Of a stretch of 39,915 bases of DNA, positions 28,127-32,900 are shown piece by piece. Origin of the DNA: Opitutales bacterium (lineage in GTDB: Bacteria; Verrucomicrobiota; Verrucomicrobiia; Opitutales; JAJFLR01). Both the position numbers and the translations under genes were made by a program. Each line of letters begins with the position of its first letter. Within the stretch, counting starts at the first letter, position 1. Under the pieces are notes generated by a model. That model had not been told where the DNA came from and searched no databases. It saw nothing but the letters and a program-made list of their open reading frames with translations. Location of the stretch: the NCBI GenBank assembly GCA_021772565.1, contig JAJFLR010000002.1, positions 1 to 39,915 of the forward strand. Reading direction: 5' to 3'.

Positions 28127-30916
28127 ATGTCTAATGATTTCAAAAATACCCTCAATTTGCCAAAAACAGATTTTCCGATGCGAGCGAATTTGGCAAATCG
28201 TGAACCGGAGCGTTTAAAACATTGGGAATCTTTTCGAATTTATCAGGAAGTTTTAAAGAAAAATTCCGAAGGGATTCCATTTGTTCTACATGATGGGCCA
28301 CCGTATGCTAATGGAAATATTCATCTCGGGCACGCATTAAATAAGGTTCTCAAGGATATTATTATTCGATATAAATCTATGCGTGGCTATCGAGCTCCTT
28401 ATGTGCCAGGCTGGGATTGTCACGGTTTACCAATTGAGCAACAGGTATTAAAAAAAGTAGGATCAAAAATTCACGAAATGGAACCAGTTGATTTAAGACG
28501 TTTATGTCATGATTATGCTGAGAAATTTGTTAATCTTCAAAAAGATCAATTCAAACGTTTAGGAATTAACGGTGATTGGGATGAACCTTATTTGACTTTT
28601 AATCCAAAATTTGAAGCGGGAATTTTAAGCTGCTTAAAAGATCTTGTATCCAATGGTCTCGTGAAAAAAGGGTTTCGTTGTGTTCATTGGGATACTACAT
28701 TTAGAACTGCACTGGCTGAGGCTGAAATTGAACATAAGGCTCATACATCTGATTCAATTTATGTTCGTTTTCCATTGATCGATTCTGAAAAATTTTCTGA
28801 GCTAGAGGGCTTAAGTAACATATCGTTTGTTATTTGGACAACTACACCTTGGACTCTACCTGCTAATTTAGGAGTTTCACTCAACCCAAATTTAAAATAT
28901 GTCGCCATTGAGCATGATGGACAAACATCTATAGTTGCCGAAGAATTAGCTCAATCATTTCAGGAAAATTGCAAAATCAAAGAGGGTAAAATTGTAGCGA
29001 CTTTTAATGTAGAAAACTTTGATCGCGCACGCTGTTGTCACCCTATTTTTGGAAACAAAACCAGTTTAATAATGTTGGGTGAACATGTTACGTTAGAGCA
29101 GGGGACAGGTTGTGTTCACACAGCACCCGGGCATGGCGCTGATGATTTTAATATTGGGAAAAAATATGGATTACCAGTTTTAGTTCCAGTTGATGAGAGA
29201 GGATGTTTTACCTCCGATTATCCAGATATGGAAGGTGTGCATGTTTTTAGTGCTAATCCTAAAATTATTGAAATTCTTGAGGAAAACAAATTGCTCTTAT
29301 CTGCTACAAAAGTAACACATGAATATCCCTACAGCTGGCGCAGCCATAAACCGATAATTTTTCGCGCTACTGAACAATGGTTTTTTGAATTAAATATTGG
29401 AGATGTTAAAAACAAAGCTATAAATGCAATTGATAATGACGTTCAATGGATTCCGCGCTGGGGCTATGAGCGTATTCACTCAATGGTTGAAAACAGACCC
29501 GATTGGTGCTTGTCTCGTCAACGTTCATGGGGTGTTCCAATTCCTTCAATTCGCTCTAAAAAAAGTGGAGAGTCTTTCCTTAACATTCAAATAATAAATA
29601 AATTTATTGAAAAAGTTAAGAGGCAAGGAAGCAATTGTTGGTATACAGATTCTCTTGAAGATTTTTGGTCTGAGGGGATTGTTTATGAGCCAACAGGTGA
29701 ATCTCATCCTGATGATTTTGAAAAAGAATTTGATATTCTCGATGTTTGGTTTGATTCTGGTGCGAGTCATATCGCCTGCCTGGAGCAAGATGAACGTTTG
29801 TCTTCACCGGCTGATTTATATTTAGAAGGAAGTGATCAGCATCGTGGTTGGTTTCAGAGTGCGCTTCTAACATCAATAGGTTCGCGTGATCGGGCACCTT
29901 ATAAAGCAGTATTAACTCACGGTTTTGTTCTTGATGGCAAAGGAAAAGCAATGAGCAAATCTGCCGGCAATGTTATTTCACCAAAACAATTAATTGATAA
30001 ACTTGGTGCAGATGTAGTTCGACTTTGGGTGAGTAGCGAAGATTATCGTAACGATCTAAAAGTTTCTGATGAAATTATTGATAGAATTGCAGAAACATAC
30101 CGTTTGTTTAGAAATACTTTACGTTTTCAAATTTCTAATCTTTTCGATTTTATTTACGAAAATGATGCTATTGCGTTAGAAAAATTAAGACCCTTGGATA
30201 AGTGGGCACTTCACCAATTGTCCGAATTAATAGAGTCAGTTACAGCTGCATATGATTCTTATGAATTTCATAAAGTTTATCAAATTTGCAATAAGTATTG
30301 TGCTGTTACTTTATCAGCACTTTACCATGACATGCTAAAAGATCGATTATATACATTTGATTCAGAATCGAGCGATAGAAGATCTGCTCAAACAGTTGTA
30401 TATCATTCTTTGAAAACACTTATGAGGTTGATGGCACCTATATTGGTTTTTACTTCTGACGAAGCTTTTTCATTTAATGAAGAAAACAAAAATTTAATTA
30501 ATGATTCGGTTCACCTTCAGAGTTGGCCGGAAATTCCGAAAAATTGGTTAAATTCAGAGATAGCAAAAGATGTGAGCCAATTACTGAAAATTCGAAGTTT
30601 GGCCTATGAAAAATTAGAAGTATTAAGACAAAATAAAGAAATTGGCCAATCGTTAGAAGCCCAAATTACTATTTCGGGAAATCCCAATAATTCTGATTTT
30701 GAACTTTTGTTGAAATATGAAGAAATGCTAACTGAATTATTTATTGCATCAAAAGTAATACTAGTTGAAAACTCAAATGTCAGCGAAACAAGTATTGAAT
30801 TTCATACTAAACATGCAAGTGGTGAGCGTTGTCCTCGATGCTGGTATTGGATAGATTCAAACAATGGATGTAGCCGAAGTTCAGAGTGTCCAATGGTCAA
30901 GCAAGAATGTACGTAA
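28127..30916 (+). CDS. ileS: Isoleucyl-tRNA synthetase
   Basis: This 929-residue enzyme charges tRNA-Ile. Class I signatures are the HIGH-like 'GNIHLGHALNK' (HLGH near residue 67) and the KMSKS-like loop GKAMSKSAGN (MSKS at 609-612). The CP1 editing domain has 'WTTTPWTLPANLG' and 'GTGCVHTAPGHGADDF'. The C terminus carries the zinc-binding segment 'GERCPRCWYWIDSNNGC...ECP'. Start ATG at 28127 agrees with the family start ('NTLNLPKTDFPMRANLANREP'). No T-box leader is visible in the 245 bp upstream. It is followed by the AT-hook/DksA protein and lspA, an order that I associate with Verrucomicrobiota. Confidence 0.97.
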   Translation: MSNDFKNTLNLPKTDFPMRANLANREPERLKHWESFRIYQEVLKKNSEGIPFVLHDGPPYANGNIHLGHALNKVLKDIIIRYKSMRGYRAPYVPGWDCHGLPIEQQVLKKVGSKIHEMEPVDLRRLCHDYAEKFVNLQKDQFKRLGINGDWDEPYLTFNPKFEAGILSCLKDLVSNGLVKKGFRCVHWDTTFRTALAEAEIEHKAHTSDSIYVRFPLIDSEKFSELEGLSNISFVIWTTTPWTLPANLGVSLNPNLKYVAIEHDGQTSIVAEELAQSFQENCKIKEGKIVATFNVENFDRARCCHPIFGNKTSLIMLGEHVTLEQGTGCVHTAPGHGADDFNIGKKYGLPVLVPVDERGCFTSDYPDMEGVHVFSANPKIIEILEENKLLLSATKVTHEYPYSWRSHKPIIFRATEQWFFELNIGDVKNKAINAIDNDVQWIPRWGYERIHSMVENRPDWCLSRQRSWGVPIPSIRSKKSGESFLNIQIINKFIEKVKRQGSNCWYTDSLEDFWSEGIVYEPTGESHPDDFEKEFDILDVWFDSGASHIACLEQDERLSSPADLYLEGSDQHRGWFQSALLTSIGSRDRAPYKAVLTHGFVLDGKGKAMSKSAGNVISPKQLIDKLGADVVRLWVSSEDYRNDLKVSDEIIDRIAETYRLFRNTLRFQISNLFDFIYENDAIALEKLRPLDKWALHQLSELIESVTAAYDSYEFHKVYQICNKYCAVTLSALYHDMLKDRLYTFDSESSDRRSAQTVVYHSLKTLMRLMAPILVFTSDEAFSFNEENKNLINDSVHLQSWPEIPKNWLNSEIAKDVSQLLKIRSLAYEKLEVLRQNKEIGQSLEAQITISGNPNNSDFELLLKYEEMLTELFIASKVILVENSNVSETSIEFHTKHASGERCPRCWYWIDSNNGCSRSSECPMVKQECT

Positions 30917-30943: not shown

Positions 30944-32374
30944 ATGAGAAAATCAAAGATTATGTCTAATAGTAAAATTAGTGATGTAAAGGGGGAAGTG
31001 AAAAGAGGCAGAGGTAGACCACCAAAAAGTGCTCAAAGTTCAACAACAGCAATATCTAACAAGATAAATAAAATATCTGATGATTTTAAAGATGATACAT
31101 CAACTCCGAGAAAAAGAGGCAGACCCCCAAAAAATTTGGTAGAATCACCAAGAGGCCGTGGCAGACCTCCTAAAGAAGCAATTAAAGTTAGTAGAGGTCG
31201 GGGTAGACCACCCAAGGAAGATTCTTCAACTGTCGTTAAAAGAGGTCGGGGTAGGCCACCAAAAATAACTGTTGAAGAGGTAATGAATGAGACTCCGAGA
31301 GGACGCGGCAGGCCTCGGAAAACTGAAGTTGTTGTGAAAAGGGGTAGGGGCAGGCCACCCAAGAATATTGTTGATAATGTTTTGACTGGTGCTCGAAGGG
31401 GAAGAGGAAGGCCACGTAAAGATGCCACAGTTATCACTGGGCGTCCAGCGAATGAGTTTCCTGATGTTCCTGTAAAAAGAGGGCGAGGGCGACCCCGAAA
31501 AAATCAAACTGATAACTACATTCAGCGTGAAACAATTCCCAATAGAGTTGAAGCATATGTGAATGAAAAAATAGCTCAAAGAGAAGCAGCTTTACCACAA
31601 GCGGCAATGAAAGTTTTAAAGGGCAAGAAGAAACATACACCAGCTGTTTTTAAATTACCTTCCAAGAAACAGACTCCGATTGTATTTTCACTTGAGGATG
31701 TTAAGCACGTTATTGATACACGTAAAAAGGAAAAGAGTATTCAGGAAGCTCAGGTAATTGCGGAAAAGCAAATTATTAAAGCTAAAGAGCTGGAGAAGAT
31801 TAAAGAAATTGAGCAGAAAGAAAAAATTCTTCAAGAATTTAAAGCGGCCTCAATTGCAGATATTCTTGGATACAATCCTAAAACTGAAAAACAATCGGGA
31901 GGTGATGACATCAATAAAGTTCCAAATAAATTTCTTAAATATTATAAGAATTTGGTGCAACTTCGTGATCACGTTAGAAGTGGGTTGGATTTACATACTC
32001 AAGATACCCTTAAGAGATCAAATAAAATTGACTCTACTGTTCAGAGTAGCAACGTTGAACCACTTACTGATGTTGGAGAAGATAACTTTGATCGTGATTT
32101 TGCCCTCAGTCTAGTTTCTAACGATCAAGAATTATTAGTTGAAATTGATGAGGCTATTAAACGAATTTATAATAATACTTACGGGGTTTGTGAAATTACA
32201 GGAAAATTAATTAATCGAGAACGTTTGGAAGCAGTGCCATTTACTCGTTATTCCGTAGAAGGACAAAGAGAGCAGGAAACCGGTAATTTTAGAAAAGTCG
32301 ATCGCAGTGCGGCATTTCTCGATGTGAGTCCTGAAGATTCTGTTCAATTTAGCAGTGACGATTCTGAAGACTGA
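30944..32374 (+). CDS. DksA/TraR-like protein with nine AT-hook repeats
   Basis: This 476-residue protein has two parts. Residues 1-190 hold nine AT-hook motifs (R-G-R-P cores at about 21, 56, 70, 84, 100, 119, 133, 152 and 179), which bind the minor groove of AT-rich DNA. After a basic, glutamate-rich linker, the C-terminal part resembles DksA/TraR ('DNFDRDFALSLVSNDQELLV', 'EIDEAIKRI', 'YGVCEITGKLINRERLEAVP', 'FTRYSVEGQ'). DksA enters the RNA polymerase secondary channel. Only one of the four usual zinc cysteines remains (C416); the others are T, S and G/Q. ATGs at 30944 and 30962 are both possible starts. Its end overlaps lspA by 20 bp. It could be an AT-rich-DNA-targeted transcription or nucleoid factor; that is an inference. 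Confidence 0.8.
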   Translation: MRKSKIMSNSKISDVKGEVKRGRGRPPKSAQSSTTAISNKINKISDDFKDDTSTPRKRGRPPKNLVESPRGRGRPPKEAIKVSRGRGRPPKEDSSTVVKRGRGRPPKITVEEVMNETPRGRGRPRKTEVVVKRGRGRPPKNIVDNVLTGARRGRGRPRKDATVITGRPANEFPDVPVKRGRGRPRKNQTDNYIQRETIPNRVEAYVNEKIAQREAALPQAAMKVLKGKKKHTPAVFKLPSKKQTPIVFSLEDVKHVIDTRKKEKSIQEAQVIAEKQIIKAKELEKIKEIEQKEKILQEFKAASIADILGYNPKTEKQSGGDDINKVPNKFLKYYKNLVQLRDHVRSGLDLHTQDTLKRSNKIDSTVQSSNVEPLTDVGEDNFDRDFALSLVSNDQELLVEIDEAIKRIYNNTYGVCEITGKLINRERLEAVPFTRYSVEGQREQETGNFRKVDRSAAFLDVSPEDSVQFSSDDSED

Positions 32375-32900
32375 ACCATTACAACATCCCGAGAATTCAA
32401 TAAAGGATAACCTTTTAGTATACCGCAAATTATTTGCGGTGAGTATCCTTATTGTAATCATCGATCAGATTACAAAATACTGGATTCATCATTTATCAGA
32501 TTTACCACTTCATTTATACCCACCCAATGGCGGTTTAGTAATAATTCCCGGCATATTTAATATTATATTCACTGTAAATAAAGGTGCAGCCTGGGGTATT
32601 TTGTCGGACTATAGCTTCCTGCTTACATCAATGGCCTTTATTGCATTAGGTCTCATATTTTTCTTTCGAAATCAAATAAGACTATCACAACCAATTAAAC
32701 AGGTCTGTTTTGGTTTATTAATTGGGGGGATAATCGGAAATTTAATCGATAGGTTGATTTATAGTTATGTAATTGATTTTCTTGATGTTCATTTTAAGAA
32801 TTATCATTGGCCAACATTTAACATTGCTGACAGTGCAATATGTGTTGGCACTGGTATCTATATGATTTTAAGTTTTTTTGAAAAAGAAGAAGAAAAATAG
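32355..32900 (+). CDS. lspA: Lipoprotein signal peptidase II
   Basis: LspA cleaves the signal peptide of diacylglyceryl-modified prolipoproteins in the inner membrane. The 181-residue protein has four membrane segments and the catalytic aspartates in GNLIDRLIY and FNIADSAICVG. The first conserved block is VIIDQITKYWI and the second FTVNKGAAWGIL. The start shown is GTG at 32355, within the 3' end of the DksA-like gene, so translation is probably coupled; a later start nearer 'LLVYRKLFAVS' is possible. The lipoprotein at 2970 is a likely substrate. Confidence 0.94.
   Translation: MTILKTEPLQHPENSIKDNLLVYRKLFAVSILIVIIDQITKYWIHHLSDLPLHLYPPNGGLVIIPGIFNIIFTVNKGAAWGILSDYSFLLTSMAFIALGLIFFFRNQIRLSQPIKQVCFGLLIGGIIGNLIDRLIYSYVIDFLDVHFKNYHWPTFNIADSAICVGTGIYMILSFFEKEEEK

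Follow-up and report, generated by a model that had tools for sequence, protein, structure and literature searches.

An AT-hook array in place of a lysine-rich tail on a DksA-like protein of Opitutales, a putative DNA-tethered regulator of RNA polymerase

What might a bacterial protein do with an array of AT-hooks at one end and a DksA-like domain at the other, and how did it come by both? The gene that raises this question lies in a 39,915-nucleotide stretch of DNA from an Opitutales bacterium, referred to here as the window. Its open reading frame occupies positions 30944..32374 on the plus strand, as the preliminary description had it, and encodes 476 amino acids. An alternative ATG start is present at 30962, and neither start has a strong Shine-Dalgarno sequence. 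Upstream on the same strand, after a gap of 27 bases, is ileS (isoleucyl-tRNA synthetase, 28127..30916), with which the gene is probably co-transcribed. Downstream, lspA (signal peptidase II, 32355..32900, plus strand) overlaps the 3' end of the coding sequence as called, although its start is uncertain. Both neighbors were identified from their sequences and homologs, which are conserved for ileS. The GC content of the window is 34.5%, which bears out the earlier description of an AT-rich genome.

The nine AT-hooks (31001..31513, plus strand) have their RGRP cores at residues 23, 58, 72, 86, 102, 121, 135, 154 and 181. The array spans residues 23–184, in agreement with the nine motifs that had been claimed for the first 190 residues. 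All nine read RGRP[PR]K and follow one another at intervals of 14–35 amino acids; a tenth GRP, at residue 166, has no flanking basic residues. In 20,000 composition-preserving shuffles of residues 1–200, RGRP occurred 0.06 times on average and at most twice. The Pfam AT_hook model (PF02178) matched eight stretches (E = 1.1e-18, 65.2 bits vs. a cut-off of 17.4), with both the R-G-R-P core and the flanking basic residues in place, and a genome-wide scan for AT-hooks, which also counted nine here, matched this gene only. By these sequence measures, the AT-hooks are genuine. The tail is rich in arginine, with the highest R/(R+K) ratio of 132 sequences. Its composition suggests that it is disordered, and a charge–hydropathy plot placed both the tail and the DksA-like domain on the disordered side without separating them.

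Synonymous codons vary among the nine hooks, and a search of the array for a tandem repeat at the DNA level found none. These two observations rule out fresh slippage or a recent tandem duplication as the source of the hooks, and selection therefore appears to act on the protein. Local GC content was 0.45 in the hook array, 0.36 in the C-terminal domain and 0.39 in the whole coding sequence, compared with 0.345 in the window. Since hook codons are GC-rich, base composition opposes hooks in genomes as AT-rich as this one.

The gene is not peculiar to this genome. Matches were found in 50 of the 52 order-mates sampled (the window's own genome counted), and the named matches belong to Opitutales/Opitutia. 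A search of the phylum gave matches in 368 of 387 genomes, not all of which need be this gene. The order ileS–X–lspA was present in all 28 order-mates (Opitutales) with readable loci in a first set, and the same flanks were found in most of 79 parsed named loci; the two sets overlap in some genomes, and several contigs end too early. On this evidence from sequence and gene order, the window gene is the Opitutales version of a Verrucomicrobiota DksA-like gene sited between ileS and lspA. The tails of its orthologs differ widely in length and sequence across the order. Nearly all are lysine-rich and H1-like, typically with 15–33% lysine and a net charge of up to +95, and RGRP was found in none of the 28 and 79 order loci. 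As judged from the aligned sequences, one lineage has naturally swapped an H1-like tail for AT-hooks at the same operon position.

The replacement is confined to the segment before a TPAVF...FSLEDV motif that the window protein has in common with its relatives. This conserved linear motif, TPAVFKLPSKKQTPIVFSLEDVKHVI, covers residues 232–257 (31637..31714, plus strand), and its FSLEDV-like core was found in 102 of 108 parsed order loci and in none of the 20 non-Opitutales loci. A second conserved motif, AASIADILG, lies at residues 301–309 (31844..31870, plus strand); a matching pattern was present in 99 of the 108 order loci and in none outside the order. The motif that bounds the replacement, HTPAVFKLPSKKQTPIVFSLEDV, is identical in the window protein and in two other loci (L006 and L007). 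The TPxVFSLEDVR-like and AASxxDILG motifs are thus order-specific, strongly conserved short stretches between tail and domain, and are possibly partner-binding sites.

Among approximately 136 sequences examined, the hook array was found only in that of the window, so the array is known from one genome. Four members of the f2 family of the order (L147, L148, L149 and L151) have one RGRP each in an otherwise H1-like tail, and most of these single-RGRP members also carry RGRKP-like pieces. In the tree, the window sequence falls outside f2 (support 100/99), while the f2 hook bearers are nested among hookless relatives. Hooks were therefore probably gained two or more times, as read from this tree. 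A single origin is disfavored; one gain followed by losses is still compatible with the tree, in which the window's branch is long. The hook-bearing loci rank with the lowest in GC content, at 0.345–0.401 vs. a median of 0.578 for the 131 others (Mann–Whitney p = 9e-7, with relatives that are not independent); this association is confounded by phylogeny, since near relatives make up four of the five hook bearers. Across the order, a degenerate DNA pattern for RGRPRK matched about as often as its reversed control and was uninformative.

The C-terminal part of the protein (residues ~326–450; 31919..32293, plus strand) is laid out as an antiparallel coiled coil (328–365 and 377–410), a zinc-finger-like globular part and a C-terminal helix. 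Pfam zf-dskA_traR (PF01258) matched residues 412–445 with E = 1.6e-6 and 28.4 bits, which passes its cut-off of 24.9. The cut-offs of the NCBIfam DksA equivalogs were not reached (TIGR02420, 41.6 vs. 115.5 bits; NF033459, 46.9 vs. 105 bits). The best NCBIfam match, at residues 333–456, was the YteA family known from Bacillus (TIGR02890), again below the family cut-off (61.4 vs. 134.4 bits). An AlphaFold2 model built on 27 aligned orthologs had a mean pLDDT of only 70.5. Values were about 80–90 over most of both long helices and of the globular part, and the tip and the C-terminal tail scored low. In a Foldseek search with this model, the only significant matches were DksA proteins, led by DksA2 of Pseudomonas aeruginosa (E = 3.5e-6) and including Escherichia coli DksA both with and without RNA polymerase. 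VIA-align gave Z scores of 11.7 for DksA2 (rmsd 2.7, 115 aligned), 10.9 for E. coli DksA and 10.3 for RNA polymerase-bound DksA, which are only modestly above the 9–10 obtained for unrelated coiled coils (starting at 9.9). The sequence profile matched Dks of Chlamydia (6ptg) with E = 2.8e-25, and a DxGTDxFDR motif is common to both. Taken together, the predicted fold matches and the profile firmly support a DksA-like fold, as the preliminary description had supposed for this end of the protein.

The coiled-coil tip (32039..32071, plus strand) has diverged. The consensus of the order, SGDLSSYxQHxADAGTD, is degenerate in the window protein (STVQSSNVEPLTDVGED), which keeps the Asp and Gly of DxG. 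Relative to the tip residues D71, D74 and A76 of E. coli DksA, one Asp (in TDVG) lies near D74 by counting and the remainder of the tip is degenerate. The FDRD, YGxC and RLxAVPF motifs are kept. Since the tip is critical in E. coli DksA, control of RNA polymerase may be altered or lost.

The sole cysteine of the whole protein is C416, in the sequence YGVC, so that one of four zinc cysteines is indeed retained, as had been noted; the order-mates likewise fall short of the four that define a C4 zinc finger. This excludes the label of C4 zinc finger but not membership in the DksA/TraR superfamily, in which zinc-free members such as DksA2 exist. The P. aeruginosa DksA2 has two cysteines and no zinc and can replace DksA1, so zinc is dispensable for DksA function (PMC9213440). 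The YGxC cysteine was present in all order loci read (28 and 79), with a second cysteine in the domain of a few. Among loci of other classes and orders with the same tail and DksA-like domain, there were four cysteines in L242, L243, L248 and L255, two in others (e.g., L238, L245, L247 and L252) and one in L236, L239 and L254. Cysteine loss is thus lineage-wide in the Opitutales sequences, while four-cysteine homologs are found in other classes, and the loss has probably been repeated. The nearly cysteine-free zinc region singled out in the preliminary description is real but is not special to this protein, being order-wide and seen also in Chlamydia Dks. A copy that is simply mutated is ruled out, because the single-cysteine state is common to the whole order. 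The same genome has a separate 111-codon DksA/TraR open reading frame with four cysteines (L001; G000:C58:5642-5734, minus strand).

Of the solved relatives, the closest by sequence profile, C. trachomatis Dks (CT407, PDB 6ptg), comes from a related phylum and resembles the window protein in the AD-G-T-D-F-DR tip motif and in having, within the aligned region, a single cysteine that falls at YGIC, but its PDB entry has 132 residues and no AT-hook tail. We looked for synteny of Dks with lspA in Chlamydia and could not confirm it. DksA2 (PDB 4ijj), the top fold match, is similar in its reduced cysteines and lack of zinc; it is proteobacterial, has no tail and is made during zinc starvation. E. 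coli DksA (PDB 1tjl and 7khi) has the same coiled coil, globular domain and C-terminal helix but differs in its four cysteines with zinc and in having no DNA-binding tail, and the window protein falls short of the DksA cut-offs of NCBIfam.

We consider it reasonably probable that the protein regulates RNA polymerase through its secondary channel while an HMGA-like tail tethers the regulator to AT-rich DNA. Binding to RNA polymerase, binding to DNA and an effect on transcription are all predicted here. The zinc-less DksA fold would insert its coiled coil into the secondary channel, and the long N-terminal tail would serve as a disordered, nucleic acid-binding tether. In nearly all relatives, the H1-like, lysine-rich tether would bind DNA independently of sequence; the nine HMGA-type hooks would instead make multivalent contacts with the minor groove of A/T tracts. 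They would thereby be expected to concentrate the regulator, and hence RNA polymerase, on the nucleoid and on AT-rich upstream DNA, and so to tune initiation. The coupling of nucleoid binding to RNA polymerase control proposed in the preliminary description thus stands as the best, still putative, reading: the fold and the hooks fit it, and its main weakness is the degenerate tip.

The nearest known parallel is CarD of Myxococcus xanthus, in which H1 and HMGA tails have proved experimentally interchangeable (PMC8156234). In both proteins, a domain of the RNA polymerase-interacting type is joined to a disordered AT-hook tail, and H1-like and HMGA-like tails alternate at one place, by experiment in CarD and by natural variation here. 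They differ in the folded domain, which is CarD_CdnL_TRCF in CarD and DksA-like in the window protein, and in the hooks, of which CarD has four, C-terminal behind an acidic segment, whereas the window protein has nine at its N-terminus. CarD has been reported from myxobacteria only, and in the genome data then available the HMGA domain was found only in CarD-containing myxobacteria (PMC4374960). A Pfam search of the window protein for CarD_CdnL_TRCF (PF02559) gave no match at E ≤ 1, so any likeness in how the two work is one of analogy, not membership. If the regulatory reading is right, the protein would be a counterpart of CarD that evolved independently, on an unrelated RNA polymerase-binding fold. 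In the literature searched, no paper contained both "AT-hook" and "Verrucomicrobia", and the sole paper with "AT-hook" and "DksA" was a review of M. xanthus carotenogenesis describing CarD. What we see resembles a natural CarD tail swap, in one orthologous gene at the same operon position, where almost all members have an H1-like tail and a single AT-rich lineage has the hook array. Such an evolutionary series could be used to ask what role basic disordered tails play in bacterial regulators of RNA polymerase, and it suggests a way in which the transcription machinery of these bacteria may be attached to DNA.

Other readings of the tail and domain must be weighed. The protein could be mainly nucleoid-structuring, in the manner of histone H1 or HMGA, with RNA polymerase control lost and the DksA-like domain reduced to a dimerization or scaffold module. 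Nine hooks are many, the tip no longer has the SGDLSSY...QH motif typical of the order and the separate four-cysteine DksA/TraR protein could serve RNA polymerase. We nonetheless think this unlikely, as the tip retains its Asp and Gly, the domain retains the motifs FDRD, YGxC and RLxAVPF and is conserved through most of the phylum, and the layout of tail and domain recurs in four-cysteine relatives. The earlier suggestion of a histone-like protein that merely borrowed the DksA fold loses ground for a similar reason, namely that the domain is the conserved part and the tail the variable one.

The tail might also have a target other than the minor groove of DNA. RG repeats are able to bind RNA, and as an RGG-like or AlgP-like polycation the tail would bind RNA or polyphosphate and link transcription to nascent RNA or condensates. 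The lysine-rich tails of relatives are unspecific polycations, and there is a precedent in the H1-like protein AlgP, which acts on polyphosphate granules (PMC9239181). In every repeat, however, the core RGRP precedes [PR]K, as it does in HMGA, and the repeats pass the Pfam AT_hook model, while RGG boxes do not need the proline; we regard RNA or polyphosphate binding as improbable to a marked degree. Improbable to the point of being hard to credit is that the hooks are near-neutral, any basic disordered tail being sufficient and the array a product of drift and repeat expansion with function unchanged. The interchangeable tails of CarD (PMC8156234) and the wide variation of order tails in length and sequence would agree with this. 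Against it, RGRP[PR]K is kept in nine hooks despite differing codons, and the array is richer in GC (0.45) than its coding sequence (0.39) and the window (0.345), which together point to selection on the protein. The hook bearers are, moreover, AT-rich genomes, in which the cheap option would be lysine encoded by AAA.

Basic tails are not limited to the DksA-like protein. An AT-hook scan of the order genomes gave matches in 17 of 372. It is conceivable, though we would sooner doubt it, that in Opitutales, and perhaps in all Verrucomicrobiota, interchangeable H1-like and HMGA-like tails on the DksA-like protein, RpoD and Rho anchor the transcription apparatus to the nucleoid, with the choice of tail following genome base composition. 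That RpoD and Rho carry tails too suggests a chromatin-like layer in a phylum whose transcription has hardly been studied. The literature searched contained nothing direct on H1-like tails of Verrucomicrobia sigma factors or DksA. RpoD proteins were identified with the NCBIfam model, and L130, L132 and L144 by reading their sequences. The Rho termination factors L132, L144, L268 (family f16), L260 and L265 have one to three AT-hook-like motifs in N-terminal extensions, those of L260 and L265 being single hooks; the N-terminus of the window genome's own Rho (L256) is rich in Asn, Lys and Arg and has no hooks. One Opitutales primary sigma factor, RpoD L130 (G051:C103), has a lysine-rich N-terminal extension with four RGRP motifs. 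About two-thirds of the Opitutales RpoD proteins read (L206–L235) have a lysine-rich, H1-like N-terminal extension, and the RpoD of the window's own genome (L233, G000:C19) also has a lysine-rich one.
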